A DNA stretch of 64,000 nucleotides from Prostheceraeus crozeri (Eukaryota > Platyhelminthes > Polycladida > Euryleptidae): the NCBI GenBank assembly GCA_907163375.1, contig CAJQUW010011534.1:370341-434340 (forward strand), given 5' to 3'. The translations under genes and the position numbers were made by a program. Below the pieces are notes generated by a model. It was not told the origin of the DNA, made no database searches, and saw nothing but the letters and a program-made list of their open reading frames with translations. Shown here piece after piece: positions 5,446 through 54,506 of the stretch; the first letter of the stretch is position 1; the number at the start of each line of letters is the position of its first letter.

Positions 5446-6328
5446 GAAGATCTCGATCACAAGGATTCAGAGTCAGCTTCCTGATTCTTTTACTCAGTCA
5501 AATGGTCCCATAGTTATAATGTGGTAGAGGTCAAAGAATGTCGTGCATAGGAAGCATAACTCTTCAACATAGTCTTCACTGTTGGTATAGTTGTGACGCA
5601 AAAGTTTGGAGATAGACAATCTTTTCTGTGATTATAATTTGAGATGTCATGTCTGTAAATAAGTAGATAAGAAAAATCCGAGTCGCCTCCGGGGATGTTA
5701 TCGCATTGATGAATTTCTTGTTGATACAAAAATCCGCTCCGGGCGTCCTTCATTATTCAGTTATGCACTGAACGAAGCTCCTCATCCAATTTGTGGCAAA
5801 TTGGCGGAGGGTTTTCTGGAATTACAAATTTCGTTTGTGATCCAATTTCCTGAATGAGGATAAGTAACTGCTAAAATGATGTGTTTCTTGTCATTCTTTT
5901 CTCTTGTGTCATGCCACAGTTCAGATAATATTTCTCATGGAAATGAACTTCTGATAGATGAATAACGGAAATGTATCAGAATGAAAGTCGTGTTTGATCA
6001 GATAGTTCATCATTTGCTTCTGAATAGAGTTTTAGCTTCATTACTCCTACGCTGGGTTAAATTTAGGAATGAGATGAATTCTACTAATGAGACAATGAAT
6101 TAATGACTACTTGACTCCTGTCCCAACTTGATGTCCGTAAGTAACCCAGTTAACTGATTTATCCTATTCAGACGGTTGTCAATGAGACACAATTTTTGTG
6201 TAGCAAAGAACTTAAAGTTGTGAAAAAAGTATTGTAAAATAGGAATCGAAGTAATTCTAAAAAGCTATTTTTGTGTTTTTCCCGACATTGTATACGGTTT
6301 TATGATTTCTTTCCATTTTTGTGATTTA
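5446..6328. other. No recognised gene
   Basis: AT-rich sequence. A minus-strand frame of 79 codons (5514-5753) shows no motif. It ends at the TA target site of the Tc1/mariner-like element. Confidence 0.4.
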
Positions 6329-6502
6329 CAGGGTGGCGCACGTAAACCTCCGGATTTTAAACTCTTATTACTCCTCAAGTATTCATCCAATCGCCATGAA
6401 ATTTCGACTCATGCTAGTTTGGAGTATAGGATTTATGATGATTATACCTGTTGTACTGAGAATTGTCAGAAAATTCTGATTCTATTGACCGAATGACATG
6501 TA
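6329..6502 (+). repeat. Left terminal inverted repeat of the Tc1/mariner-like element
   Basis: 174 bp, matching 7889-8060 in inverted orientation, from the terminal GGGTGGCGCACG through to GACCGAATGACATGTA. Confidence 0.92.
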
Positions 6503-6680
6503 CTCATTTTGTTGACATCGAAAATCTAGGTCAAGTTAATTAACTTAACATGAATCGTATTCTGCACAACGAATTGTGCGCAGACTTGAAGTGAATATTG
6601 TTCAGTTACTTCCATGTCATATAAAATACCATTCGACGATTAAATCACTATCTGAAAAGAATCGAATATACTGTAGAAGA

Positions 6681-7727
6681 ATGGATGATTATTCGGTTGC
6701 AGAACGAGCAAAATGCTCGGCTTGGTACGAATGGCTCAAGAGTCCAGTGGAGGTACAAAGGCTTTATCATTCAGAGTATGGGAAGAACGCGAGAGCACCG
6801 GATGCCCGTACCATACAGCGGTGGCACACAAACCTGTTGACCAGTGGTAGTGTGGTGACTGTCAAGCGGGACCGGTCATCTTCTGAACGAACGGAGCAGA
6901 ATGTGGAACGAGTTGTGCAGCACTTGGAGGAGGACCCAAACACACCTACCCGTCGTGCATCTAATGCCTTCAAGTGAGTCGCCGCACTATCCAGCGCATA
7001 CTCCATGACTATGGATGGCATCCGTACAAGGTCCAGGGGGTGAAGCGATTACACGAAGAAGATCTGGAAAACCGAATGGAGTTCGCAGAACAGGAGCTAC
7101 AGCGCATCCAAGCCAACCCGAGCCATTTGGTGGAACTAACCTGGTCCGATGAAGCTCACTTCCATCTGGATGGTGGTGTGAATCGCCACAATTGTCGTTA
7201 TTGGGCCAACCAGAACCCTCATTGGATCAAGCAAGAGTCTATGCACTCGCCACGCACCACCGTCTGGGCGGCAATCAGGCATCTACGGACCGTTTTTCTT
7301 TGACGCCTCCGTCAACAAGGATCGGTATCTCAAGATGCTACAGGAGGAATTTTGGCCAGCGGTGCAGTTGGACAGAAAAGGCAGGAGCATCATATTCATG
7401 CGGGATGGTGCACCTCCACACTGGGAACTTCCTGTGCGTGAGTGGTTGAACAAGAAGATGCCTAACAGATGGATGGGACGTGGATCTCCTAACATGCCCT
7501 GACCACCGCGTTCACCTGACCTGACGCCTTGCGATTTCTTCTTGTGGGGTTTTGTCAAGTCTAAGGTTTACCATACACGGCCAACATCCATGCAAGACCT
7601 GAAGGACAGCATCATACAAGCATTTCAAGAAGTGACAACTGAGATGTGTCGAGAAACTGCTCTGGCCTACCAAAAGCGACTCGAATCCGTCCTCGAGAAT
7701 GGAGGAGGACACGTTGAAGTTCAATGA
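6681..7727 (+). pseudogene. Tc1/mariner-like transposase, broken
   Basis: A transposase that would cut and paste this element. The likely start is ATG 6681 (MDDYSVAERAKCS), opening an N-terminal helix-turn-helix region of the DUF4817 type. Frame 3 runs to about 6970, where a one-base slip moves the reading to the frame beginning MSRRTIQRILHDYGW. That frame carries LTWSDEAHFHLDG with the first catalytic Asp at 7148. A second slip near 7275-7290 returns to the first frame, with the second Asp in FMRDGAPPHW (7404). An in-frame TGA stands at 7500-7502. The third acidic residue is the Asp of SPDLTPCDFFLWG (7533). The reading ends with TGA at 7725. All three acidic positions survive, but two frameshifts and a stop make it inactive. 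Known for the family: a D,D,D/E RNase-H-fold nuclease. Confidence 0.93.
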
Positions 7728-7888
7728 CTACTAACACCTTTCTTGTGTTTTTCATTTAATAAATGTTTTCTATGACATTTACCTTAATTCGTTTTGGTCA
7801 TTATTGATAAAGACGTGGGGAAAATAAAGGGAAAAGTTTATCATTAAATTTTACATGTTAAGATACATTGTTGGTATGTCAATTTTAC

Positions 7889-8060
7889 TACATGTCATTC
7901 GGTCAATAGAATCAGAATTTTCTGACAATTCTCAGCACAACAGGTATAATCATCATAAATCCTATACTCCAAACTAGTATGAGTCGAAATTTCATGACGA
8001 TCGGATGAATATTTGAGGAGTAATAAAAGTTTAAAATCCGGAGGTTTACGTGCACCACCT
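7889..8060 (-). repeat. Right terminal inverted repeat of the Tc1/mariner-like element
   Basis: 172 bp. Its outer end, read inward, is AGGTGGTGCACGTAAACCTC. It has lost a couple of terminal bases relative to the left repeat. Confidence 0.92.
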
Positions 8061-8062
8061 TA

Positions 8063-9191
8063 TATGTCTTTATAATTGTGTAATCTACGATACATAATCT
8101 ATGATTTTCTGTGTGCACTTCAAATCTGATCATTTATTAATGATTGATTGCTGTATAGATAGGGCCGGATCGGTGATATAGATTTCAAAGTTTAGTCAGA
8201 ATTAAAAAGTGCGTCAAAATATATAATTTTACATTTTTCATGACAAAGGAAATCTTTTCTAGATTTCTTTTTCTAGAAAAATAAGATTTGTAAGTCTTTT
8301 TTCACCAAAGCAAAAATAATAACGGAAAATATTAATATATTTCTACCAGCTCTTTGGTTATCGTCAGAAAGAAGGATTTTACATGGAGACAAAATTCAAA
8401 ATTCATGTATAGGGACTAACATGGAGATGAGTAAAATGATCTCTATTCAAATGATAGAAATCAGAGTTCGACCGAAAGAAATAGGAAGTGGGCCTCAATG
8501 ATCTCTTCCGTGTTGCCTGCAAAATTGAAAATACTTTAATGTCGGCTACACGAAACAAGAACCACAGAGACCCACTCAAGATGCGTGTTATACATATAGA
8601 ACGTCTGTGAAGGCTTCTTGGTTCTTCTTTGTTTTTATTGTTATTAAGGGTTACAATACGAAGAAGAGCATTTTAGACAGAGCTAATATAAAGATGGATA
8701 CTTTGCACTAGTTGTGTAAATAACTATAAAATATGTTATATGGGGCATGAAGACAAGGGCAGTGAAAAGCAAATTCTTCATATCCCCATCGAACTTTGAA
8801 GGCGCGGGACATCAGAGCACCGTCCATTTTGTACATTTTTGAACTACAATAGAGATACCTCTTGCTTCTTGCTTCAAACCTGACTATGATCTCCTGTCGC
8901 TTTATGAATCTTATCGCTGGACATGGATACAAAGACTGAGGACACTCTTTATGCTGCATGGATAGTAGCTGCAGTGAACGTCTGATTTGGTGAATATACC
9001 GATTAGAATTTCAAAATTAGCAAGGGGCTCAAAACTTTTAATTGTTTGAACTGTTTCAAATGATAACTTTCGAAACACTGTCCAATCCTATTTTTAAACA
9101 ATGATTATTTTAACCTATCTTAAATTATTTGACATTTTAATTCAGCAGTTCTGCTTTATTGTCTGATCTACCGTTTTTTTCTCTTCAACAG
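8063..9191. other. Sequence before the C16orf89-like exon, probably intron
   Basis: No coding motif was recognised. The last bases form a strong splice acceptor, a pyrimidine-rich stretch ending TTCAACAG at 9191. Confidence 0.5.
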
Positions 9192-38182: not shown

Positions 38183-38392
38183 TATAAAATAATTAGAAAA
38201 TCTGGGAATAGGCCAAGTGTTTATATTGATAGAAAATATAAAAATGTATGAATTAGAAAAATCTAGGAGTTTGTAATAATAATAGCAATAATTTTTTTTA
38301 GTAATAATAATAATTTTTCTAATTCATACATTTTTATATTTTCTATCAATATAAACACTTGGCCTATTCCCAGATTTTCTATATTATTTTAT
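38183..38392. repeat. Near-perfect inverted repeat, 69-bp arms, AT-rich loop
   Basis: The arms 38194-38262 and 38313-38381 are almost identical inverted copies (both contain GGGAATAGGCCAAGTGTTTA and ATGTATGAATTAGAAAAAT). Weaker pairing extends outward by about 10 bp. The 50-bp loop is TAATAATAAT/T-rich. The motif TTTGAGCAGAGA stands on both sides (about 38146 and 38392) and might be a flanking duplication. It would form a cruciform. Confidence 0.8.
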
Positions 38393-39824: not shown

Positions 39825-40255
39825 GTGCTGTTTTCGTGAGTATTACTCAGTTTGTTTCAATCAGTGACAAATCCTTTCATGACAATTTTCTTAGATATAT
39901 TAGCAAACGATTTGTGATGATCTAGCGACCGTTGTTCATTAATTGTTCATTGACCGTTGAATCAGCGCAGTTCTTTTGGGTTCTACCCATTTACAGAGGC
40001 GTACGACCTGGCTTGCAAAGATTGACATTTATAAGACAGACAACAGAAAGAGGTATAGAGAATGATGACGCGTCGATGTCGAGGCGTCAGAACTGGAGTG
40101 CGAAAAGGTCAGCAAAAGTGCACGCGCTAAGGTGCACGCCAGAAGCAGAACGAACGCTCGTCTGACCGGCCGATCTGAGCGATGCTCCATGATGCTAGGT
40201 CAAAGCCAATCGATGGCGCAACCCTACACATTGTCAGTTACTGTCATTCTCAATC

Positions 40256-42091
40256 ATGCGACCGCAACGAGAGGCTGCTCGACTGGCTCAAGCTGCACTA
40301 TTCGGAGCAACAGAATCGGACTCAGAAGTAGATGGTGATTCAGACCAGGAAGATAACGTGGAGCACATTGTAGATGTTCACGATGATTCGGCATCGAGTG
40401 AGGATAATACGAGTGATGAAGATGTCCCAGTGCCACGACGACGCGTTGGCGGAGGAAGAGGGCGAGGATTACTTGTTTCGTCTCAACAACCGGCTGTGCG
40501 CGGTCGTGGACGAGGTTTTGTACCTCGACAGGCACAAACAAATCCCTACAACGATAAGAATGGTTACTTGTGGTCACCTGAACCACCTCAACAGAGAGGT
40601 CGACGCGATGCAGCAAATGTTGTTCACGTTGGTGGAGGGAAACCCGAACCAGGTGCAGTGAAGAACACCATTTTGGAGACCTGGTCACTTTTCTTCCCGG
40701 ACACTATGCTCATGCAAATTGTTCATTTTTCTCAGATGAAAGCAAATGCTCTGGGTATTGAAGTTCAGTTGACTGTTGTCCAGCTTAAAGCTTACTTTGG
40801 AATTCTGTACTTCAGAGGGGTTTTCGGCGATCAGAAGATTCCTATCGAGCAACTTTGGAGTGAGAACTACAACACGTTCTACCGCACAACTATGAGTCGC
40901 AACTTATTCCAAACTTGGAACCGTGTATTGCGATTCGATGATTCAGAGCTCAGAGAAGACCGGAAGAAAACAGATTCATTTGCTGCCTTGAGAGACATCT
41001 GGTCTGAGTGGAATGAAAGACTCCGTATTTTCTACAAAGCCAGCCATTCAATCACCATTGATGAACAACTGGTCGCGTCACGTTGTCGCTCACCACACCG
41101 GATCTACAATCCGTCAAAACCGGGAAAGTATGGCGAGCTTGTGAGATGGTGCACAGATGCTAAGAACAGGTATTTCTTGAATGGCAGCCCACTAACTAAA
41201 CGTCCGGAAGACAGTGTCGCGGCTGAAGTTCACAAAGAGTCAAATCGAGCAAAATCACTTGTGATGAATTTGTGTGGACCGTTCTTCAACGACGGAAGAA
41301 ATGTCACCGGGGACAGATTCTTCACTTCGATGGATGTTGCTACTGAACTGCTGAACCGGAACACCACGTATCTCGGAACAATGCAGAAAAATAAGAGGGA
41401 CATTCCGGCGATCTTGCATGAACCACGGGAGCAATTTGACTCAATCTTCGCATTCGGTGGCGACCGGAAGAGACTCACAGTCCAGTCCTATCAAGTCAAA
41501 CCAAAGAGGAAGGTTTATCTAATATCCTCTATGCATCACTCTGCTGAAACACTACCTGATGGCAAGAGAAAGAGCAACATGCAGCTCTACTACAACGAAA
41601 CCAAAGCAGGCGTTGATGTAGTGAACGAAATGTGCAAGGCCTACTAGGTCAGGACTCGAGTTCACAGGTGGCCCATGGTCCACATGCACAACATGTTGGA
41701 TGTGACTGGGATCAACGCCTACACCATCTTCAACATGTCCCTACCAGACTGGACAACGGTTGTGGAGAGCAAGCGACGTCGACAGTTCCTACAACAGCTT
41801 GCTACCGAGTTAGCCAAAGATCACATGCTGCTCCGACTGCAGGAACCTATCGGACTTTCAACGGAGCTTGTCAACCTGATCACCAAAGCAACAGGTCAGC
41901 AAAATCCACGTCGATAAGCACCTGTGCAAGAAGGCCAAGAAGCACCGCAGTTAAGATGCGCCAGGTGCAAAGACAGTGGCAAGCCAACTCGCGACTGTAA
42001 CAAAACTCGTCACAGATGCCGAGAGTGTGATGCACCAGCTTGCGGGCGACACACTCTCGTGGCCCAGGTGGTTTGTTCAAACTGTATGTAA
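40256..42091 (+). pseudogene. piggyBac transposase (PGBD-like) with two in-frame stops
   Basis: The transposase that would excise and integrate the element at TTAA. ATG 40256 opens a 463-codon frame. It has an acidic N-terminus (about residues 18-56), an Arg/Gly-rich linker, then the DDE_Tnp_1_7 core. The three catalytic aspartates are present: D269 in SITIDEQLVASRCRS, D353 in VTGDRFFTSMD and D454 in TKAGVDVVNEMC. A TAG at 41645 interrupts the gene. The same frame then continues (HRWPMVHMHNMLDVTGINAY) to a second stop, TAA at 41915, and on to a cysteine-rich C-terminal domain (CARCKDSG, CRECDAPACGRHT, CSNC) ending at TAA 42089. Total length is 611 codons, normal for the family. With only two point stops and no frameshift, this copy died fairly recently. 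Confidence 0.93.
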
Positions 42092-42479: not shown

Positions 42480-44054
42480 AAAGAGAAAATGAATGAATTT
42501 GACGCAAGAATTTGCTTTTGGAGGTTGCTTTGTCCGATTATAATTTTTCATATTTTACATTTGGAAAGTAAATCCTGCGGACGCATTCACTATACAGTTG
42601 ATCTCTTGCTTTAATACTTCACGACTTTCTTCTCCTCATAATGATATTTTCGTTTTATGAAAATGTTTTCTTCTCTGTTCAAATTCCAAAATCAAATGAG
42701 GGCTAAATTGGATTTTTAGATTAAGGAAATCCTAAACAATATCCGAAAATGAAAAATTCTATTAAATTAATTCAGATATTTTACAATAAGAACTTCCCTA
42801 TCAATAATCAAAAACTTGCAATAAAAAATTTGACTGAAGAAAGATTTCAAAAAAGTCATTACTTTTTCATGTCTTGATATAAAAGTGTATTTTCGAAAAA
42901 ATCATATCTTGAAATGAAAATATATTTTCTCGTGATGATAAAGATGTACTAATTTTAAATATTCTATACCTAAGAAATGAAAATTTTGAAAATAGTGAAA
43001 ATCAATAGCAAAGTATGTCACACTTTCTCAGAGCCATCTCCTTTTTCATTATCAATATCACTGAATTTTAGATGTATCACTGGTCTAGATTTTACTGAGT
43101 CACTGTCATTTTAGAAATCGTCGCAAGCAACAAGTTGAAAAGAATAGTAGTCCACTTCACACAGACTAGACATGACCAGCAGATATCAAGTTGGGAACAA
43201 ATACACATTTTTGAAACTTCAAATCCGAATATTTTTCCTTTAAATTGTCAAAGCACAGCATATCAATATGAAAAAATTGACTATTCAAAAATTCAAAAAA
43301 TCGGACATAAATATTGCATTCATCAATAGTAAAATATAAGCGTGCTGTAAATGGATGACCTCAACATCAATTTATGTTCTTTCAAAATTATTAATGTGCG
43401 CCGGACATCACAGAAAACAGGATCATCGAACTTTTATACCGAAGATGATTTTCGATCGTTCCACAAAACCGTTAAGATAAAATGAGATGGCGCATATTTT
43501 CAAATCAATAGGAGTCAGTCAAACAGATAATCATATCAGTAACCAAAACATAGCATTGTGCAAAGACATCCCGTTGCCTTGCAATGCGATTGTAACAAAC
43601 GTCCACCGGAAAGACGCTGCGGAATGATGGAATTCAAAATACGATTACAATCCAAAACTGACACACAATTTCATAGCTTGGTGGCGCTGAATTTCAAAAA
43701 GTCAGGCGAACACTTCAGTTTGCATCAATTACATATAATTTTGTGTCAGCGTTTCCAGAAATTCGAAATTAGATGTTTATCTTTCGTCAAAATATCTCCA
43801 ACATATAAAGAACACCCTTTATTCAAAATAGAGTGGACAAGTGTCTTTTTTGATGATCATAGGTTTCAGGACAGTTTTCATACTTATTTCTTAGTCAACA
43901 AAACTATGTTTATTATCGCTACATATTGCATGACAGGAATTCTATTAATTAGTATATTCTTTTATTCCATCATTTCGGTAATTCATTTAAAAACGTATTC
44001 TCAATTTTTTTTCTAATTAAGTAAACGGTAATAGAGAATGACTCGTTTTGTAGG
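42480..44054. other. No recognised gene
   Basis: Very AT-rich. A 152-codon plus-strand frame (43558-44016), with a cysteine-containing start and a hydrophobic C-terminal stretch, matches nothing I know. It is a weak gene candidate. Confidence 0.35.
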
Positions 44055-44321
44055 TGGAAAAGACATTCTTCTTTGCTCGGCGCTTCGTCCGTTCTTGTGA
44101 AAGACCTGTGCCCGTATTAACAATCTGTCGGTAATCCTACTGTGAATTACCAACAGCAGTTGGTAACTTTCACAACAGCTCAGTTCATGGTATTAACAAA
44201 CTGACAGTAACATTCACAGTAGCTCTTCACTGGTTACTGCCATCGGCCAATCAGAATTCAGCATTGACTCCTTGGTCGATCACATCTTTATGAGACACAT
44301 GTTAACTATGACTGATGTACA

Positions 44322-45040
44322 ATGACCAATATGTCTAAAGGCAAAGAACTCGATATTCGAATAATCGAGCTGTATGAAGAGAATCGCAGTATTTTGGAAA
44401 ACAAGGGACGAAAGGCTCAAATCGATTTAAGAAAGAAAGAAGCCTGGGAGTCCATAACGCTGAAGATCAATGCTGAATTTGGTGTTCAGCTCACCACAAA
44501 AAGGTTGAAGATAAGTGGCGCTACTTGAAACGAACATCAAAGAAGGCCAATGCTACCCATGTCAGAGCCAAACAAAGAACTGGTGGTGGCCCACCTCCGA
44601 AACCCCTGACAGAGACTAATGAGAAAGTGGTGAATGTGTTGGGGAAAACTGTTGGTTTCCGGGGTATCGCAGGAGGAATGGAATCAACGGTAGCTGACCT
44701 CATAACAAGCAACAACACCAATGATGTCGGAACTTCAAGTGATCCAGGACCTACAAACAGAGAGCATCAGAATACGAGTATACCCGACAATGCGAATGAA
44801 ACTGGTATTGTTGCATTGGGTACTGATGAAAATAACGATCCAATAAATCTACCAACAAACCGACAGGTGAGCCGGAAGAAATCACCTAAAAAGAAACTAA
44901 GTCAAGAGGACATTCTGCTCCTTCAGGAGAAAGTCCTAAAACGAGATCTTGAACTTCAAGAAATAAAATTCAGACTGTTTAGTAAAGCTGAAAAGTTTTT
45001 TGATATAAAATTAGCTGAATTTGATCGTGATGTTTTATAA
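44322..45040 (+). pseudogene. Harbinger Myb/SANT-like DNA-binding protein, one frameshift
   Basis: The partner protein that Harbinger nucleases need for DNA binding and nuclear import. ATG 44322 starts KGKELDIRIIELYEENRSIL and a trihelix. Near 44500-44510 a missing base moves the reading to the next frame, which continues VEDKWRYLKRTSKKANATH and the typical TGGGPPPKPLTETNEKVVNV stretch, then a Ser/Thr/Asn-rich linker, a basic cluster (RKKSPKKKLSQED) and a C-terminal helix (LQEKVLKRDLELQEIKF). Total length is about 240 codons, as expected for NAIF1-like Harbinger proteins. Apart from the single indel the gene is intact. An assembly error cannot be excluded. Confidence 0.85.
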
Positions 45041-45772
45041 GACTTTATCCTGAACGACTCGAGTTTTACTACAGAAAATATTTTCTGATATTTTCATTAG
45101 TATCAGTAGGCCCTCCATGTAGATGTGTGTTCATATGGTATTGGTGTTAAGTGTTCTTTGGTATTGGTTTTGGTTATATAATAGAGTTATCACAACAATC
45201 CTTTGTTTTTGTTTGTTCATGTACATGAAAGCTATCCATTGAGTACACGTATTTAGAATACATTTATGAAAAAGAATTCTATTAAATATATTTAATTCGG
45301 GATTATTAATTGAATTTTTAATTTGAAAGATCCCCAAACTACTCCGAAAAGATAATTTTCATTTGTTTTGCAACAATAATTGATTGCTATCAATGAAATT
45401 TGCCTTTCCTTTATAATAGAATTTTAGAAACTGTTAATTAATTATTAGTATAACTTGGTATCTTGCTTCAGAAGTTTAGTAGAAAAGTATAGTCTATAGG
45501 CCTTTTATTGTAGCCTATATAGTCTCTCAATCATATCCGTGTAATGAATAGCTTACGTTGGGCTATATTTTAAGAACTTGACATTTGAATTACATTTTAT
45601 ATAACTTTGTAGTTTTTTCGCCAAATTTGTGAATCATATAGAAATGGATTGTGCCAGTCGTCCGCGCGGCTGGTACAATACATTTCTATGTGTATACTCG
45701 TATACGATTTCAGTCTTAGCATTCATTTTAAAAGTCTCATTCACGCAATATATATTTTTCCTTTACAGTATC

Positions 45773-46783
45773 ATGGCAAGGTTTATAATCGCTGCAAGCC
45801 GAAAAACGAAATCGTATAGGAAGATATTTGATCCCTTGGCTGAATTGAACGACAAAGAATTATATTCTAGATTTCGATTTGACAAGAACGGAATTATTTA
45901 TTTATCTGATATGTTGAGAAATGATCTGCAGTCGGTAACGGCAAAAAGTCGAGCAATTCCAGTCGAAATACAAGTATGTATAGCACTGAGATATTTATCC
46001 TCTAACGATTTCCAGATAGGGGTTGCAGACGACTTTCATATATCTCAACCCGAAGTTTCTCTCATAGTAACCAGATTTATAGATGCAATTGTTAGACATG
46101 TTGATGACTTCGTTAAGTTCCCTTCTTCACGAGATGCAAGTCGGCATGCTCAATCAGAGTTTTACCAAATTGCGGGGTTTCCTCGAGTTGTTGGATGCTT
46201 GGATTGTACCCATGTACGCATTCTTGCTCCAGGTGAAGATGAAAATGATTATGTTAATCGCAAAGGATATCATAGTATCAATGTACAGGCAGTTTGCGAT
46301 GCCAATGGGAAATTCATCAATTTCTCTGCGAAATGGCCCGGATCCACTCACGATTCATTCATATTACGTAACAGCTCTCTTTGGGATTATTGTGAAGCGG
46401 GGAGATTGGATGGAATAATTTTAGGAGATTCTGGATATCCGAACAGAAAATGGCTCTTCACACCTTACAGAAATCCCCAGACTGATGCCCAGACAGTTTA
46501 TAACAGTAAACATAAGCGAACACGTGTTCTAATCGAAAACGCTTTTGGACGTTTGAAACGACGCTTTGCAATATTACACAGTGAAGCGCGTCTTAATAGC
46601 GAAAAGGTTGCTAAAGTTGTAGCAGCTTGTATTATTTTGCACAACATAGCAATCGATATAAGATTGCAAGATTTGAGTGATGTTGAAATTGATGACCAAG
46701 AAACCGATCTTCCTCCTGTTGGGTCTTTCCCATTGAACTCATCAGCGTATCGAGATGCCTTTACAAACGATGTTTTTGGCTAA
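45773..46783 (+). CDS. Harbinger transposase, HARBI1-like nuclease, intact frame
   Basis: The DDE nuclease (DDE_Tnp_4) that cuts the element. The frame is open from 45629, but the first 48 codons are hydrophobic and unlike the family. ATG 45773 (MARFIIAASRKTKSYRKIFD) is the more likely start, and TTTTTCCTTTACAG at 45755-45768 could be a splice acceptor just before it. Catalytic acids counted from 45629 are D192 in GCLDCTHVRI, D267 in ILGDSGYP and E303 in VLIENAFGRLKRRF, a D-D-(35)-E arrangement. An HTH-like helix (PVEIQVCIALRYLSSNDF) precedes them. The 337 codons from 45773 are normal for HARBI1-type proteins, with no stop or frameshift. It is a potentially active nuclease whose DNA-binding partner upstream carries a frameshift. 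Confidence 0.92.
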   Translation: MARFIIAASRKTKSYRKIFDPLAELNDKELYSRFRFDKNGIIYLSDMLRNDLQSVTAKSRAIPVEIQVCIALRYLSSNDFQIGVADDFHISQPEVSLIVTRFIDAIVRHVDDFVKFPSSRDASRHAQSEFYQIAGFPRVVGCLDCTHVRILAPGEDENDYVNRKGYHSINVQAVCDANGKFINFSAKWPGSTHDSFILRNSSLWDYCEAGRLDGIILGDSGYPNRKWLFTPYRNPQTDAQTVYNSKHKRTRVLIENAFGRLKRRFAILHSEARLNSEKVAKVVAACIILHNIAIDIRLQDLSDVEIDDQETDLPPVGSFPLNSSAYRDAFTNDVFG

Positions 46784-47575
46784 TTGTTTATACTCGTGCA
46801 ATATTTTTGAAATACAAAATTCTCAGCCCACTAGTTTTCTTATTATACTACAGTCAAAAATTCAAAATAATAACGATTGAAGTCCTCGTTGACATCGATT
46901 GTGTAAAGTAAATTAGGATGTATCATATTTACGTATGTGGAACATAAATGTGGTTACATTAATGTACGCTATCAATGTAACAAAATACTCTAGCCTACAT
47001 ATTAATCATTTTGAGGTTAATTTGAGAATTCTGTTACGTCTCAATTATCTTGTCAATTACATGTACAGCTTTCTCGTAGCTATGCATAAAAGAAAAGTCT
47101 CCTCTTTATGGTAATCAGTCCAACAAAAACGATTATCTTTAAAAATCATATGAATCTGATTCTTTCATGAGGAATTTTGTTTGTAATATAAGTCTACCTC
47201 AAGCATAATTTGAAAAAATATTTCATAATTTTAATTATTGTATTGTTATTCATAACCTCCATAAAAATCAATATTGAAACCGGTACAGCGCTATAACGTT
47301 TTTTATATAGAAAATTTTTCAGTATATATATATACCATGAGCAAAAATGCTTACTTTAGACTTTTTGATCAAAATTTCACAAAGGTATTTTTATAGACAA
47401 AGTTCGGCGAAGATTAGGCATATATACGCTCGTATATTTGCTATATGAGGGTGTAAAACAAAATAATACTGTTCATTTGACATGTTAGCTTAGCATAGTA
47501 TACCATACTGAGTCATGTAGAGGACAGATTTCTAATTATTATGACTAATGAAAACATTTATCGACATTTTACCTA
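46784..47575. other. Non-coding 3' part of the Harbinger element
   Basis: AT-rich; no frame recognised. Confidence 0.5.
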
Positions 47576-47640
47576 CAGGTAGCTGTCGGTAACAATTTTG
47601 ACCTGTTGGTGTTTGTAATTACCTACAGTTAAAATTTGTT

Positions 47641-47780
47641 AATACCAATTACCAACACCTACAAGTAATTACCAACAGCTGCTGGTAATTACCTACAGAT
47701 AATATTTATTAATACCAATTACCAACAGCTACAGGTAATTACCAACAGCTGCTGGTAATTACCTGCAGGTAAATGATTGT
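47641..47780. repeat. Two 70-bp subterminal tandem repeats of the Harbinger right end
   Basis: AATACCAATTACCAACA occurs at 47641 and 47711, 70 bp apart. Each unit contains the palindrome-like TTACCAACAGCTGCTGGTAA and TAATTACCT.CAGGTAA. Related motifs occur at the left end (44145-44230: AATTACCAACAGCAGTTGGT). They are likely binding sites for the Myb/SANT-like protein. Confidence 0.8.
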
Positions 47781-48050
47781 TAATACGGGCACTGATTAGA
47801 TTAGCTTTACCTCAGGCACAAGTTCCTGAACTGTTTGATATCTGTTCTGTAAAAGTGGCAGTAGATCGACAGATACACACACAAGATTAATCAATAAAAT
47901 ACTGATATATCATAAATAAGAAGCAATAAAAGGGACATGAAGTTAAAGAAATGTTGATTGTGCTAAAAGTACGCTTGTACACCGCGCTACCGGTACATGA
48001 TATGATAATTGAATGAAAAAAAGAAAGTTTGAAAGACACATATCAAAAGG

Positions 48051-48678
48051 CTACAAAATCGTTGAGCAAAATATGCGCTCCTTCTGAATCCACAGACCAG
48101 GATTGAACCATTTCATAGTCACACCACTTGAGATGAAAAGTTTATACTGTGTGTTACACTTTCTAAGGTAAGTAAAATTGCTGATGCTGCAGCTGTCACG
48201 GTGTAAACATTCTTGAAGATGGCGAGTGATGCTCGAAGTTGGGGCATTTGTTGATTGAGGACGCGTACATCCAACAGATAGCCACTTTAGGAGATGCTCC
48301 TTTACACGCAGTCGAAGTGGTCTCGCGCTCTCCCTTGCTCCGCAACCACACTTGAATTGATATACAAGTTTGTGTTGATAAGGAAGAGGCGTGGGATCTT
48401 TCGCTGCGTTTGGACCAAGGCGAAATGTCTTAAACATCACATGTAGTTTAATAATGAAGTAACAGCTTTGGACAGCGTTGGCAAGGTTATTACCGGGGAC
48501 TTTGCTGACCGTAATAGGGTAGGCTGACGTAGATTTTCTTCTCAACGGTCGACAGTTTGGTATGATCGGTAGAAGATTTCCGTATAAACCACCAAGGGTA
48601 GCAATTTCGAATTAGAATATTTTCCATGTATGTGATCTCTTCATTCAAAAACTGAAGGGAACAAATCTTTCGAATTCT
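48051..48678 (-). pseudogene. Penelope-like element: linker and decayed GIY-YIG endonuclease
   Basis: Minus-strand readings in two frames give RIRKICSLQFLNEEITYMEN, NILIRNCYPWWFIRK, KKIYVSLPYYGQQS, then (after a frame change near 48500) a KLHVMFKTFRLG stretch, KLVYQFKCGCGARESARPLR, LRVKEHL and TRHLQECLHRDSC. This is the order of the region between reverse transcriptase and endonuclease in Penelope-like elements: NGYP helix, LPYxGxxS, VxFxT, then the Y-x-F-x-C-x-C start of a GIY-YIG nuclease and its R..EH helix. The YIG core itself is lost (GARESARP). It is cut off from its polymerase by the foldback insertion. Confidence 0.82.
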
Positions 48679-49281
48679 TAGGTTAAAAGGTGAATGTCTT
48701 ACGTAGTATAGATACAAATCAATAAAATCAATGTACAATGGACTGAACATGAATGGAACAATACAGCTGGTGAAACCATGAACTACTAGTAGCAGCCTAA
48801 AAGTGCAGAAATACCAGCAGGAAGAGAGTTTAGATACATTAACTTGCTAATGGCCTAACGCTAATCACATTAGCACCCAAACCCAACTGAACTTCAATTT
48901 TAAAAAAGACGACAATTATAGAACGACCCATCGAATTTCACTTGTTTGTTGAGTTTAGGACTCAATTTTTTAATGTAAAAAGCTTCTTATTAAATATCAA
49001 AGAAGCTTTTTACATTAAAAAATTGAATCCTAAACTCAACAAACAAGTGAAATTCGATGGGTCGTTCTATAATTGTCGTCTTTTTTAAAATTGAAGTTCA
49101 GTTGGGTTTGGGTGCTAATGTGATTAGCGTTAGGCCATTAGCAAGTTAATGTATCTAAACTCTCTTCCTGCTGGTATTTCTGCACTTTTAGGCTGCTACT
49201 AGTAGTTTATGGTTTCACTAGCTGTATTGTTCCATTCATGTTCAGTCCATTGTACATTGATTTTATTGATTTGTATCTATA
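48679..49281. mobile_element. 603-bp foldback element with 282-bp near-perfect arms and 12-bp target duplication
   Basis: The arms 48705-48986 and 49002-49283 are inverted copies of equal length with only about three mismatches (GCTGGTG/GCTAGTG, CCATGAAC/CCATAAAC, GGACTC/GGATTC). They are joined by a 15-bp loop (TTATTAAATATCAAA). Direct copies of CTTTCGAATTCT stand at 48667-48678 and 49282-49293. They are most simply a 12-bp target-site duplication inside the Penelope reading frame. The left side has 26 extra bases (48679-48704) not matched on the right. There is no significant coding frame. Confidence 0.88.
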
Positions 49282-50017
49282 CTTTCGAATTCTATCGAAT
49301 AAGGTCCTCACTGAATTCATCTTGCAGAGCTTTGGGCAGGACTCGTAAATGGGGTATATAAACCTGTGAAACACGCTTTCCGATGAACCTTGATGAATAA
49401 TCTTCCATTAGATGGCATTATCTCCACATCAAAGAAAGAATCTCCAGAATACCGTGTGCACAGTAAATTATGATGCATTTTGCTATGGCTTGCAAAAATT
49501 ACTCTCTTGAACCGGATTCGATATTCATCCGCAAGACATACAACTACTTCGGGTCTTATGCTTTGAAGCATCCGCTGCTCATGATGGCCAACGAAAATAG
49601 AGGCGAAGAGCCAGATAGCGGACTACCCATCGCTAAGTAGTCCTGCTGGATGCAAATATTGTCAAACACAAACTTAACGTTCATGGAAACTGCAGTCAAC
49701 AATTCTCTCAGACTTGTTTCAGACAAACATCTGGATCCAATTTTTGATGGAGTTCTGTCTGAGCGATAATAAGTTTCGCATATTCTGTCGATCGTTTCTT
49801 GTACCGGTATATTCTTGAAGAGACTTCTAATATCAGTTATCATGAGCACGTCGCAGTCGGCAATATTACTGCAGATAACAAATCACAAAATCCAGAGGAA
49901 TCTTTGACTGAGAAACGATTGAAATGAGACAGAATTGGCTTTAAAATCTCAGTATCCACCATCTTTGCTATGCCATGACATGCCGCTCCAGTCATAGATA
50001 GGACGGGTTTTGTCCCT
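49282..50017 (-). pseudogene. Penelope-like reverse transcriptase, truncated, lacking the YxDD box
   Basis: Minus-strand frames give KPVLSMTGAACHGIAKMVDT, LKPILSHFNRFSVKDSSGF, then DIRSLFKNIPVQETIDRICE, VKFVFDNICIQQDYLAMGSP, and after a gap GDSFFDVEIMPSNGRLFIKV and HRKACFTGLYTPFTS. This is the Penelope-like polymerase order (LRPI-S, DVxSLFTNIP, Q-x-x-G-x-AMGSP, PFLDV, KxTFTGLYTxFxS). The stretch that should hold the catalytic Y-V-D-D between AMGSP and PFLDV is missing, so a deletion removed the active site. The N-terminal part is also missing: coding similarity stops where the inverted repeat begins (about 50017). Several frame changes add to the decay. Confidence 0.87.
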
Positions 50018-50149
50018 TTTGTTGCTCTTTATTTATGACATATCAGTCCTTTATTGATTTTTGTTTGTGTGCATCTGTCGATCTACTGTCACTTTTACAG
50101 AACAGATATCAAACAGTTCAAGAACTTGTGCCTGAGGTAAAGCTAATCA

Positions 50150-50819
50150 CAGGGAGTAGAACGCTTGACTTCAAAATCCACGGAAATACCAAATACCCAT
50201 TTTTTTCACGCTACTTATATTCATCGATATCTTGTGATCTAATTTTGGCAAAGCAATTTTCTAAAGATTGAGTTCCTCAAAAGAAAAAAGTAAAATTCAA
50301 ATGAGACTTTCAATTTCTTAACTCTGGAAACACATTCACAGATAGTTAACAATGAGGAAGTTTCTGTACATGCGCATCAGTGAAAACATTTCAGATACAT
50401 GCAGAAGAGAACCCGTTTGTATTATTCATTGACATGAACATAATAGCCTAGTTCCTGATCTGGGCTTGAATTTTATTTTTTCACATAATTTGACAATTTT
50501 CGGAAATTTATAAATTTATTCTGCTGCTAAACTTTTGTAAGTTGCCTAAAACCACTTACAGTTGCAAAAATTCAAATAGTAGAAAACATTTTCTGTATTT
50601 GATAAGAAAAGTGAGACTTAACTAATTCATACTCATATGACGTAAGCTATACACTATGTGAATTACGAGTATATACTTGCTTAACGGAAAGTTTTTATTG
50701 AAACCTAATAATTTTCGGGTACCCCTATCCCCCACCCCTCCATTTTCTATTCCATATTTGCACGAAATATGAGAATGACCATTTCCATCACCAAATCCAA
50801 GAAACCGTTCTACTCCCTG
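50150..50819. mobile_element. 670-bp non-autonomous DNA element with 14-bp ends and a 6-bp target duplication
   Basis: The ends CAGGGAGTAGAACG and CGTTCTACTCCCTG are perfect inverted repeats, with weaker similarity continuing inward. TAATCA is duplicated at 50144-50149 and 50820-50825. The insertion interrupts the right arm of the large inverted repeat. Removing it restores the alignment with the left arm. There is no transposase inside. The superfamily is uncertain: hAT makes 8-bp and others make 5-6 bp duplications. Confidence 0.8.
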
Positions 50820-50820
50820 T

Positions 50821-51216
50821 AATCAGTTCCGTGTATGCTCTTCAGTAAGAGCGAACGAAGCGCCGAGCAAAGAAGAATGTCTTTTCCATTGTTACTTAGC
50901 ATTAACAAAGAAAGAGGTAGATCACATTTTTGGTGAAAGGAAAGACCTGAACGAGGATAGTGCACTCAAGAGAATTCTATTTCTGTGGTATTGGGCGCTT
51001 TGCCACATCAACAGGAATGTGCGCCGTGATGGTCTGACTGAAAACCCCTTGCTTCGAGGAGGTTTTGAGGACTTTGGCATCGTAACAAATGACAAACCCC
51101 AGAGAGAAGCAGTCAAATTCGCTGAAAGCAATCATTATTTCATTTTTGCAGCTTACTGTATAGAAACTGTGCGAGAAGACAGCGTGCAGAGACTGCGAAT
51201 TAGTAAATGCAAATAG
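50821..51216 (+). CDS. Unassigned open reading frame, about 130 codons
   Basis: The frame stays open from at least 50821 through the right inverted-repeat arm to a TAG at 51214-51216. It reads VDHIFGERKDLNEDSALKRI, LFLWYWALCHINRN, GLTENPLLRGGFEDFGIVTN and ESNHYFIFAAYCIETVRED, a coding-like composition, but I recognise no family. No ATG lies at a convincing start; 51019 is GTG. It could be a piece of an old transposon ORF, or an exon. The beginning of the frame is shared with the inverted-repeat arm at 44.1 kb, where a similar reading (DEAPSKEECLFH) is also open. Confidence 0.35.
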   Translation, partial: NQFRVCSSVRANEAPSKEECLFHCYLALTKKEVDHIFGERKDLNEDSALKRILFLWYWALCHINRNVRRDGLTENPLLRGGFEDFGIVTNDKPQREAVKFAESNHYFIFAAYCIETVREDSVQRLRISKCK

Positions 51217-51560: not shown

Positions 51561-51900
51561 TAGGGGAGAGCGGGGTATTATCGATCACCTGAGTTTGAGG
51601 GGTGATAGAGACCACTAATTCCTCTCTAAAACCAACTTTTTCGGCCAAATCACTAGCTATGAACCAAGGACAACTAGATATCAATAAGCTGCCAGGACGC
51701 GGAAAGCGAAATCATTGTGTCGAGTTTTATAGGCTGACAGTTGACTGCGGCCGATCAGCTAACACTGTCTTCCCAGCTCTCTGCTGTTGTTATCGTTATG
51801 ACTCAGCACTGCACCGTCAGGCGGATAATGCACATAATACACAGACTCGAATCATCGCATTAAGACTTTCATCGAGTGCGCTACTTGAGGTCTTGTCGAA

Positions 51901-52377
51901 ATGCCTCGGAAGTGCTGTGTGATACACTGTAAGGGCAATTACGATTCCAGCGATTCAAAAGTAACTGTTTATGGATTCCCAAACGAAGAGGAGGAGCGAA
52001 ATCGCTGGGTGCGAGCGTTACCGAATACGATCAAAAAGGTGACACAATACATCGGCATTTGTGCTTCTCACTGGCCGGAGGACACAGAAATGGTTAAAAT
52101 CAAGCGCTATAATCGACCGATCAATCCACCATCAATATTTCCTAATTGCCTGCCTTCGAACTTCATTCAAACAGCTTCTTCTTCGCTCAGAGATGTAGAG
52201 AATCGGCGAGTCTCTTCTTCAGTTCGTTCCTCTATTCCTGATGAGTTGGAAACATTCGAATCTCTTGACAACATCGTTGATTGGACATCATTCATCGCTC
52301 AACTCTCCTCAAAACTTTCATCGAAGACCATGATTTATGGGTTGTTAAACGTTCATCTACAGACGTGGTCAAAATGA
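51901..52377 (+). CDS. THAP-domain N-terminus of the P-element-like transposase
   Basis: ATG 51901 starts a textbook THAP zinc finger, the site-specific DNA-binding domain of P-element transposases and THAP9. The C2CH ligands are C5, C10, C54 and H57. The conserved FP (26-27), W36 and the PPSIFP version of the AVPTIF box (76-81) are present. After residue 100 comes a linker that enters the transposase region, and the frame closes at 52375. Similarity moves to the next frame near 52300-52325 (from WTSFIAQLSS to LLKTFIEDHDLWVV). A one-base indel therefore separates this domain from the catalytic frame, or the two products are made separately. No intron with normal splice sites was seen there. 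Confidence 0.9.
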   Translation: MPRKCCVIHCKGNYDSSDSKVTVYGFPNEEEERNRWVRALPNTIKKVTQYIGICASHWPEDTEMVKIKRYNRPINPPSIFPNCLPSNFIQTASSSLRDVENRRVSSSVRSSIPDELETFESLDNIVDWTSFIAQLSSKLSSKTMIYGLLNVHLQTWSK

Positions 52378-54506
52378 TTCACTTCATATGTGAAAACATC
52401 GTTGATTATTGTGTTTCTGTCACAAGTGACTTTGTTATAACATCTGTAAAACAAAATACACGTGTTGACATCAAGTCTGTGGTCGGATTTGGACGGAAGT
52501 TGACGAAGTGGTCTCAGTTAGAAGCTGTGATATCTGTTACAAAATCAACGCTACCTTCATTTGAAATCGAACTCAATTGTGCTGCAGAAAACATTGAGCG
52601 TTCTATGCAGTTCGCTGACATCGACATGGATGTGAGGCGACGTCTTGAATTCTTATTATTTCAAGTAAAACACATGTCATCTCGTCCATACGAGTATCCA
52701 GCTTCCATTTTGAAAGTGAGTACAGAACTGTTGTTAGCCGGAACAAAATCATATAACATTTGTAGAAAGCACCTACTACTCCCTCATCCTGATACTGTCA
52801 AAAAGCATATAGGAAGTTTGAAAAGTACTGGCAGTGTTGCTGATGCCAAAGACACTATAAATGCCGTTTTTCACAAGCTTGTTGGCATTCAGAGAACATG
52901 TTTGTTGTTGTTCGATGAAGTGTACATAACACCCTCTGCAAGATACCGCGGTTGCCATCTTTTAGGCAGAGCTGAAGATGATCCAAATAAAACAGCTAGA
53001 ACTGTTTTAAGTTTAATGTTGAAACCACTTTTGAGTCATCGAGCTTTTATGGTTCGTCTAATTCCGGTTTTTTCATTGACTGCAGAGTTCCTTGAATGTG
53101 AGATTTTGAAGCTTGTTGAAATAGTGAATGAATGTGATGGTAAAATCAAAGCATTTATTTGTGACAGCGCATCGGTTAATAGAAGATTCTACAAATCTAT
53201 CTGCTCTTCAGATAACGAAAATTATTTGTTTAAACATCAGTCCACTGATTCATACATTTACTGTCTACACGACACAGTACACTTATTAAAAAATGTGAGG
53301 AATAATTGGATTTCTGAAAAGAAAAAAGAGATCAAATTTGAGTTGCCAAACAAAGGCACAGTTGTAGCTAAATTTAGTGACTGCATCAAATTGTATAGAT
53401 CTGAGGCATCCAATATTGTTAAGCGAACAAATCTCACATATCAATCATATTTTCCGTCTTCAACAGAGAAGCAAAATGTTCGCCACGTGCTCCGAGTCTT
53501 TAATGAGAAAACAGTAGCCGCACTTGTGAATGATGGATGTATTGATACTGCGAAATTCATAGATTATTTTCTTAGGTTGTGGAAGATGCTAAACATCAAA
53601 ACCATAGAGGGACACATTCGCTTGAACGACTCTGATAGAAAACCTTTCTCCGATCCGAATGATAACAGAATTGTATTTCTTCGTGAAACAGCTGAAGCCA
53701 TTTCAAGAATGCCCGGAAATTCAGGGCCGTACAGAATACAGTCTTTCACGTCTGTTACTAGAGACGCCTTTGCCCAAACTCTGCGTGGGCTGTCCAAATT
53801 GATTCAGGAGCTATTGAGAGACGAAGCATTAAAATACATCTTACCAGGTATTTTTCAAACTGATCCTTTAGAAGGCGAGTTTTCATGCTATAGACAAATG
53901 AGCGGCGGGAACTACTATATCGGCCTAGACCAACTTTTGTGTAGCGCCAGACTGCGTAAATTGAAATTATTTGAGGAATTGGATATCGATCGTAGCGAAT
54001 TCTTTCATGTTCAGAATTTGTGTTGCTCGAAAGAAATGAGTGATGATGAATTGAGTGTGATTGACTCTCTTTTCGAAAGATCAAACTCTTTGTCCGACAA
54101 TGAACGCTCTTCCTTGTATTATATATGCGGATACATATGCTTCAAGGAAGGTATTGTGAATGATTCAGAATCGGATCTGTTGACTGATGAATCGGGTAAT
54201 CGTTTTATTTGTGAGTTCACCGACTTAGTGAGCAGAGGGAAACTGACTTATCCCCGTCATGATGTGGTATATTTTGCTTTTGTAACATATACGTTCTTTC
54301 CGAAAGATAAATCTATTAATTGTGGAAATCTCTTATGTCACAGGTTCCTCTACATTTATGAGTCTCTCTGTTTTTGCTTTCCGAACTGTCTAAATGTGTG
54401 TCGGCGGTTGGTGAATTGCTTCTTCAAGGGACAAGTGAATATGAGCTCGGATGAGCTGAGCTCATCCAAAGCTGCCAAGCGAAAACGACAAAAACTTAAT
54501 TCGTAG
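52281..54506 (+). CDS. P-element-like transposase catalytic region, 741-codon frame intact
   Basis: The long frame matches P-element/THAP9 transposases from the first helices to the C-terminus. The RNase-H-fold acids, counted in this frame, are D212 in CLLLFDEVYI, D295 in AFICDSASVN and E531 in TDPLEGEFSCYRQMSGG. The family signature HDTVHLLKNVRNNW (about 330-343) starts the GTP-binding insertion region. The C-terminus has a Cys-containing module (YYICGYICFKEG) and a Ser/Lys-rich tail (SSSKAAKRKRQKLNS) with a nuclear-localisation look. There are no stops or indels within 2.2 kb. Only the junction with the THAP frame is off by one. The true product would begin at 51901 if the frames were joined; ATG 52281 is just the first Met of this frame. 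Drosophila P transposase is a GTP-dependent cut-and-paste enzyme; the same is inferred here. Confidence 0.92.
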   Translation: MDIIHRSTLLKTFIEDHDLWVVKRSSTDVVKMIHFICENIVDYCVSVTSDFVITSVKQNTRVDIKSVVGFGRKLTKWSQLEAVISVTKSTLPSFEIELNCAAENIERSMQFADIDMDVRRRLEFLLFQVKHMSSRPYEYPASILKVSTELLLAGTKSYNICRKHLLLPHPDTVKKHIGSLKSTGSVADAKDTINAVFHKLVGIQRTCLLLFDEVYITPSARYRGCHLLGRAEDDPNKTARTVLSLMLKPLLSHRAFMVRLIPVFSLTAEFLECEILKLVEIVNECDGKIKAFICDSASVNRRFYKSICSSDNENYLFKHQSTDSYIYCLHDTVHLLKNVRNNWISEKKKEIKFELPNKGTVVAKFSDCIKLYRSEASNIVKRTNLTYQSYFPSSTEKQNVRHVLRVFNEKTVAALVNDGCIDTAKFIDYFLRLWKMLNIKTIEGHIRLNDSDRKPFSDPNDNRIVFLRETAEAISRMPGNSGPYRIQSFTSVTRDAFAQTLRGLSKLIQELLRDEALKYILPGIFQTDPLEGEFSCYRQMSGGNYYIGLDQLLCSARLRKLKLFEELDIDRSEFFHVQNLCCSKEMSDDELSVIDSLFERSNSLSDNERSSLYYICGYICFKEGIVNDSESDLLTDESGNRFICEFTDLVSRGKLTYPRHDVVYFAFVTYTFFPKDKSINCGNLLCHRFLYIYESLCFCFPNCLNVCRRLVNCFFKGQVNMSSDELSSSKAAKRKRQKLNS

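Follow-up and report, generated by a model that had tools for sequence, protein, structure and literature searches.

Inverted terminal repeats are a described trait of Penelope-like elements (PLEs). In the rotifer Adineta vaga, the Penelopes Pen2, Pen2a, Pen5 and Pen6 have inverted pseudo-long terminal repeats (pLTRs) of about 180-220 bp at their ends (PMC3846280). Here, a locus of the polyclad flatworm Prostheceraeus crozeri is described in which a copy of one PLE family (family A) is bounded by inverted arms of this kind and has received a copy of a second PLE family (family B) as well as two DNA transposons. The locus lies in a stretch of 64,000 nucleotides (assembly GCA_907163375.1, contig CAJQUW010011534.1, positions 370,341 to 434,340, forward strand), which is termed the window; all coordinates refer to the window unless a contig is named, and loci fetched from the genome carry the label L.

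The features that these elements have in common with the A. vaga Penelopes are 5'-truncated copies flanked by inverted pLTRs in head-to-head orientation, an optional tail on one of the inverted pLTRs (31 bp in the rotifer), target duplications (8-10 bp in the rotifer, 10-13 bp in family B) and the presence of one PLE inside another; unlike in A. vaga, the copies are more numerous here and the two halves are unequal in most pairs of family B (PMC3846280). The second system for comparison is PAc, a Poseidon element of the lizard Anolis carolinensis, which is similar in its protein (reverse transcriptase, RT, plus GIY-YIG domain, the latter putative in the elements described here) and in its tandem copies with pLTRs. 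In vitro, this protein was active on both strands of the target, which it cleaved and extended, and the tail was equated with the segment that separates two start sites of the RT; the elements described here differ in that no hammerhead was found with Rfam, and in that the genomic pairs show one start site per end (PMC11167929). The inverted-pLTR shape is thus already described for PLEs, and the pattern of priming is the point of interest. We consider it likely that the inverted ends of families A and B represent this known PLE anatomy, with later inserts nested in the copy of family A, and that these ends originate from two-sided priming.

Inverted pLTRs of family A

The family A copy of the window is an old, 5'-truncated PLE on the minus strand, probably of the endonuclease type, which extends over about 44042-50901 and is bounded by its own inverted pLTRs. 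The preliminary description had reported inverted arms of about 200 bp, each split by a different DNA transposon, and this is confirmed by the alignments: with the Harbinger element of the left arm and the 670-bp element of the right arm set aside, the arms realign as two copies of about 200 bp, with inverted matches of 96% identity (47799-47881/50066-50148), 88% identity (47889-47937/50011-50059) and 95% identity (44055-44096/50847-50888). BLAST within the window gave 91% over 139 bp for the arms (expectation value, E, about 2e-50) and 95% over 42 bp for their outer parts (E 4e-14), so that a chance resemblance is excluded. The length given in the preliminary description did not hold, since the arms reach further outward, the left one to 44042, where it ends in a tail remnant, and the right one to about 50901.

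The left arm comprises an outer part (44055-44108, minus strand; 95% inverted match, the last 3 bp being one copy of CTG) and an inner part (47792-47937, minus strand; 91% to 50011-50148, with the second CTG at 47792-47794). On its outside lies the tail remnant of this 3'-side pLTR (44042-44054, minus strand), the sequence of which, CTCGTTTTGTAGG, matches the tail of other family A copies; 27 bp known from other family A copies are absent between 44054 and 44055. The right, tail-less arm comprises an inner part (50011-50149, plus strand, from the inverted match within the window) and an outer part (50820-50901, plus strand; 94% to positions 141-230 of 249 of the arm at L004, with the second TAATCA at 50820-50825). 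A candidate target-site duplication directly adjoins the edges, with the left copy TAATAGAGAATGA at 44029-44041 and the right copy TAACAAAGAAAGA at 50902-50914 (both read on the plus strand); its score was equalled by 107 of 5,000 random left ends. For three of nine other family A pairs, the duplication score was 2 or less.

The genome of the window (2.05 Gb) was searched for relatives. With the inner left arm as query, 40 scored matches were obtained from 72 candidates, including the window's own two, and 30 loci of about 3.1 kb each were fetched. The PLE 3' untranslated region (3'UTR) adjoins the arm at the same point in 22 of the 29 unique copies outside the window that reach the inner end, with scores above the maximum of 20,000 random 60-mers, and 26 of the 29 exceed the 99% level of this control. 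Left out of this count were the two arms of the window, arms with a start past position 8 and near-duplicate places; both arms of one pair enter separately. The arms are therefore the PLE's own 3' terminal repeats (pLTRs) and not the ends of a carrier transposon; of the two possibilities raised in the preliminary description, that PLEs here end in inverted repeats or that the element is carried inside an inverted-repeat transposon, the former is supported and the latter is not, and the refuting condition named there, arm copies that are never linked to Penelope sequence, is contradicted by the same count. The left arm of the window has the native arrangement of arm and 3'UTR, and the right arm is the inverted partner, the inner limit of which differs from copy to copy, with no fixed repeat border.

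Family A arm pairs outside the window, as read from the arm table of the fetched loci, are arranged head to head in 13 of 13 cases, and 12 of the 13 pairs have a tail on exactly one arm; several arms are fragmentary, and a cluster of three arms (L003/L019) was omitted from this count. The tailed arm runs out to CTACAAAACGAG, and its partner terminates at about TTAGCATT or before that point. The tail-less arms of L006 and L028 are short (they stop at 171 and 144 of 249, respectively) and may have lost their outer ends. The exception, L007/L010 (G000:C13104), has a tail on neither arm, and its outer flanks form inverted repeats of their own.

The orientation of PLE neighbours was also assessed with the RT piece of the window as query, based on the best 150 scored places of 4,456 candidates, a set that may contain duplicate assemblies. 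The places are mostly 48-68% identical to the window piece, and thus represent relatives of family A rather than family A itself. Among neighbours on one contig at a distance of up to 6 kb, 25 pairs were on the same strand (12 of them within a single array on contig C12656), ten were head to head and none was tail to tail; ten head-to-head pairs among ten opposite-strand pairs correspond to a two-sided p of 0.002. Beyond 6 kb, one head-to-head and one tail-to-tail pair were found. The array (G000:C12656:14615-38201) contains at least 13 PLE RT fragments in tandem on one strand, with a period of about 1.67 kb, and looks like a satellite grown from a PLE.

Palindrome of family B

A third insert in the coding region of the family A copy, which had been missed in the preliminary description, is a 603-bp palindrome at 48679-49281. 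It is the inverted pLTR pair of a second, young PLE family (family B), with a tail on one arm. The first arm (48679-48988, plus strand) includes the outer tail of 26 bp (48679-48704), and its inner part is 99% complementary to 49000-49283. The centre (48989-48999) consists, by comparison with other family B copies, of 9 nt that continue the tail-less arm and of 2 nt filler; at this point, most other family B copies continue with TGATATTTAGGGC. The second, tail-less arm (49000-49281, minus strand) was delimited by complementarity and genomic copies. A target duplication of 12 bp, CTTTCGAATTCT, is located in the RIRK codons of PLE A on the left (48667-48678, plus strand), with a matching right copy at 49282-49293 (plus strand); none of 1,000 random left ends reached its score. 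The RIRK codons are doubled around the palindrome and single in the relatives L062 and L066.

The arm of the palindrome has 44 scored genomic matches of 90-100% identity, including the window's own two, and family B copies with long interiors encode a PLE reverse transcriptase (open reading frame, ORF, of L052 against RVT_1, E 2e-12). The two arms of the palindrome have four variants in common, three of which are absent from 25 other family B arms. Divergence between them is 1.1%, compared with 9.3% between the inner and 5.0% between the short outer parts of the family A arms; family B hence arrived later than family A, unless gene conversion kept the family B arms alike. An interpretation of the palindrome as a DNA foldback element or a microRNA gene was rejected, as the arms are those of a PLE family that has an RT ORF; the Rfam matches obtained were generic long hairpins, far below the gathering scores.

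Survey of family B insertions

After merging of duplicates, 24 unique family B insertions were available, which represent the best matches to a query that contained the tail, and hence a biased sample rather than a random draw; junction and length figures were entered by hand from alignments. Thirteen insertions are two-ended, ten are one-ended in the stretch fetched, and one (L038) is of unsettled type. All 13 two-ended insertions have their 3' ends outward, with one tailed and one tail-less arm, and the tail-less arm starts at position 26-30 in ten of these pairs. The two halves of a pair are unlike in length by 8 to 2,323 nt, with a median of 297 nt; the difference exceeds 100 nt in 12 of 13 pairs, the exception being the pair of the window. 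At the junction, the halves overlap by 0-10 nt in six pairs and are separated by 1-8 nt of filler in seven. Some family B copies have internal jumps, and in L052 the full element runs on into an upstream direct partial pLTR, as is compatible with a tandem template.

A duplication of 10-13 bp encloses the whole pair in ten of ten unique pairs tested, with scores that were equalled by 0 to 2 of 1,000 random left ends per locus; L036 and L044 also have a duplication around the pair, as judged by eye. A single duplication around the whole composite that is this rare in controls indicates that each family B pair is best read as one event. Of the unique one-ended insertions, seven were tested and three have a duplication. 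When arms were compared across 11 pairs, the best match of an arm was its partner in eight pairs, with a tie in one (L032). Target-site duplications of variable length, pLTRs and a tail on one arm, which are traits of PLEs, are all present here.

Origin of the inverted ends

From these sequence data, we lean towards the interpretation that many PLE insertions in this genome consist of two complementary DNAs (cDNAs), one per target end, of which one starts at the distal site (and has the tail) and the other at a site about 27 nt inward. The target would be cleaved in a staggered manner, and PLE RNA, derived mostly from one source locus, would be reverse-transcribed with each side of the cut serving as a primer. 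One cDNA would begin at the tail site, its counterpart in most cases 26-30 nt more inward, and end joining or template switching would then connect them in head-to-head orientation. For the family A copy of the window, the left cDNA would have reached residue 386 of the RT, and the right cDNA would have stopped at the inner end of the pLTR. The palindrome at 48679-49281 would be the minimal product, i.e. two nearly equal short cDNAs and nothing else. The two-ended priming, the source of the RNA and the joining of the cDNAs are each deduced from genomic copies.

A different origin of inverted pLTRs, self-priming, is proposed in the Discussion of the A. vaga study (PMC3846280): a cDNA or an antisense transcript folds back and copies itself, which generates a head-to-head palindrome. 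The palindrome of the window would suit this route, with its short loop, its near-equal halves (311-312 and 320 nt) and its arms with four variants in common, and the one-ended insertions L041 (L041/L077) and L045 carry hairpins of 20-22 nt at their 5' ends, which may be a minor vestige of self-priming. However, the palindrome is the only near-perfect one with a short loop among the 13 family B pairs, and a genome search with the exact pattern (up to 30 nt between the arms) found this locus only, though copies with mismatches would escape such a search. The unequal halves in 12 of the 13 pairs argue against self-priming and favour a start at two offset sites, primed by both ends of the target, and folding leaves the asymmetry of the tail, at nearly fixed positions, unexplained. 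Self-priming as the general route is disfavoured, and we regard it as rather unlikely.

Twin priming as in L1 elements, in which the second target end primes within the same RNA, is a still less probable source. It is similar in that inverted halves lie in one target duplication, with small overlaps or filler at the joint, and the pairs described here are likewise two-ended and inverted within one duplication. L1 twin priming yields non-overlapping segments of one transcript, with no common 3' end, whereas the halves of the family B pairs overlap, and their starts both lie close to the 3' end, in most cases no more than about 30 nt apart. No more can be said for two independent PLE insertions, or a later inversion, as the cause of the inverted arrangement, which we rate as slightly more improbable again: PLEs are abundant in this genome, and three arms occur at one locus (L003/L019), but a single duplication encloses both halves in all unique family B pairs tested, the opposite-strand RT neighbours within 6 kb are head to head without exception, and partner arms are usually most alike. 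Hardly credible is a PLE as cargo of an inverted-repeat DNA transposon with the arms as its terminal repeats, for although inverted arms with a possible target duplication would agree with it, the PLE 3'UTR adjoins 22 of 29 arm copies, a tail distinguishes the arm ends, as would not be the case for terminal inverted repeats, and the inner limit of the inverted partner arm is variable.

Several observations weigh against an origin of known PLE ends by two-sided priming. The target duplication of the window's family A copy is decayed (10 of 13 positions identical) and a candidate only, and the PLE comparisons were confined to sequences of the window's own genome. The presence of at least one tail per family B insertion results in part from selection, as the query contained the tail, and in ten of the 24 insertions only one end is visible within the fetched stretch. 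The start of the tail-less arm deviates in L035 (39), L055 (17, with part of the tail) and L059 (23-27, unclear), and the partner arms of L033 and L051 are not each other's closest. The near-equal halves of the window palindrome would, taken alone, fit self-priming, and the hairpins of L041 and L045 point in the same direction. Finally, in vitro there was no difference in start sites between top and bottom strand, according to the PAc report (PMC11167929), whereas the genomic pairs are asymmetric.

Coding remnants of family A

The coding pieces in the window are collinear with residues 386-845 of L066, an 845-amino-acid PLE protein of the same genome. Remnants of a Penelope-type protein, which the preliminary description had named as reverse transcriptase and endonuclease, hence lie between the arms, with the endonuclease part putative, and the coding similarity indeed stops at the inner edge of the right arm (between 50010 and 50011). 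The 3'UTR and putative endonuclease region lies at 47938-48488 (minus strand; 48054-48488 corresponds to residues 698-845 of L066, 54% identity), followed by the linker from the RT thumb to the endonuclease at 48499-48678 (minus strand; residues 632-692, 54% identity); together, these two gave E 3.5e-59 against L066. The reverse transcriptase remnant at 49282-50010 (minus strand) corresponds to residues 386-635, with 45-63% identity to L066 in three main collinear pieces, and is 37.5% identical to the family B RT (E 3.7e-12). With several frameshifts, a decayed YVDD motif and three residues missing at the YIG position, this copy is dead.

L066 matched RVT_1 with E 2.4e-8, and its GIY-YIG region matched the Pfam GIY-YIG family with E 0.0085, which is under the curated cut-off; a Pfam search of the window pieces gave no RT or endonuclease match. 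We take the RT to belong to the PLE branch from its motifs and the order of domains. A search of the PDB was uninformative for the window, and with L066 it gave no more than weak similarity to bacterial RTs; two scans of the viral_contigs set for PLE relatives yielded none that was confirmed. A hammerhead ribozyme has been reported in the pLTR region of some PLEs; a search with Rfam in 43900-51200 (E up to 10) and in six related loci (E up to 5) found none. To our knowledge, it is not obligatory for all members of the PLEs.

DNA transposons and order of insertion

The insert in the left arm (44109-47791, plus strand; 3,683 bp) has terminal inverted repeats and CTG on both sides, and contains a transposase ORF at 45776-46783 (plus strand; Pfam DDE_Tnp_4, E 5.5e-42); with a DDE transposase, terminal inverted repeats and a 3-bp duplication, it is a PIF/Harbinger transposon. 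Its left end is flanked by CAG or CTG in six of six loci (the window and L081-L085), with the right ends lying outside the fetched loci. The first 372 bp have 30 genomic matches, 17 of which, including the window copy, have the full score (672 bits, 100%), so that the copy looks very young; without the window copy, 16 of 29 matches score as identical over 372 bp. The insert in the right arm (50150-50819) is an element with terminal inverted repeats of exactly 670 bp, with TAATCA on both sides. It has 44 genomic matches including its own, of which the nearest other is 88% identical. A flanking 6-bp repeat occurs in the window (TAATCA) and in L070 (CGTTTT); L073 and L074 have no clear flanking repeat, and the matches at L071 and L072 fall short of the element's terminus.

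The Harbinger and the 670-bp element are later DNA-transposon insertions into the family A copy, which is older than all three inserts. Of the proposal that the order of insertions can be read from the nesting, this first step is retained; an order among the three inserts does not follow, as none nests in another. Evidence other than nesting suggests that the Harbinger copy and the family B palindrome are young.

Other features of the window

At 6327-8064, transposase-like ORFs are enclosed by inverted repeats of 185 bp that are 93% complementary; this element is presumably mariner-like. An ORF of 482 amino acids (40199-41644) resembles, as we assume, a piggyBac transposase, and two long ORFs at 51889-54503 (162 and 741 amino acids) are taken to represent a THAP-type zinc finger and a P-element-like protein. 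A perfect 69-bp inverted repeat with a 50-bp spacer is present in AT-rich sequence at 38194-38381.

Implications for PLE replication

In the Penelope literature, as judged from titles and the opening lines of abstracts, with subscription journals mostly outside this coverage, we recognised no such count of paired halves; no claim of priority is made. Little is understood of how PLEs replicate. Where a genome contains many young copies, self-priming can be tested by counts of half lengths, start sites, junctions and duplications. The initial counts presented here speak for priming by both ends of the target, at two offset sites, which agrees with the two-strand activity observed in vitro, and reveal a strand asymmetry that was unseen in vitro. 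If this is true, inverted pLTRs would be a direct footprint of two-ended target-primed reverse transcription, and not of self-priming.

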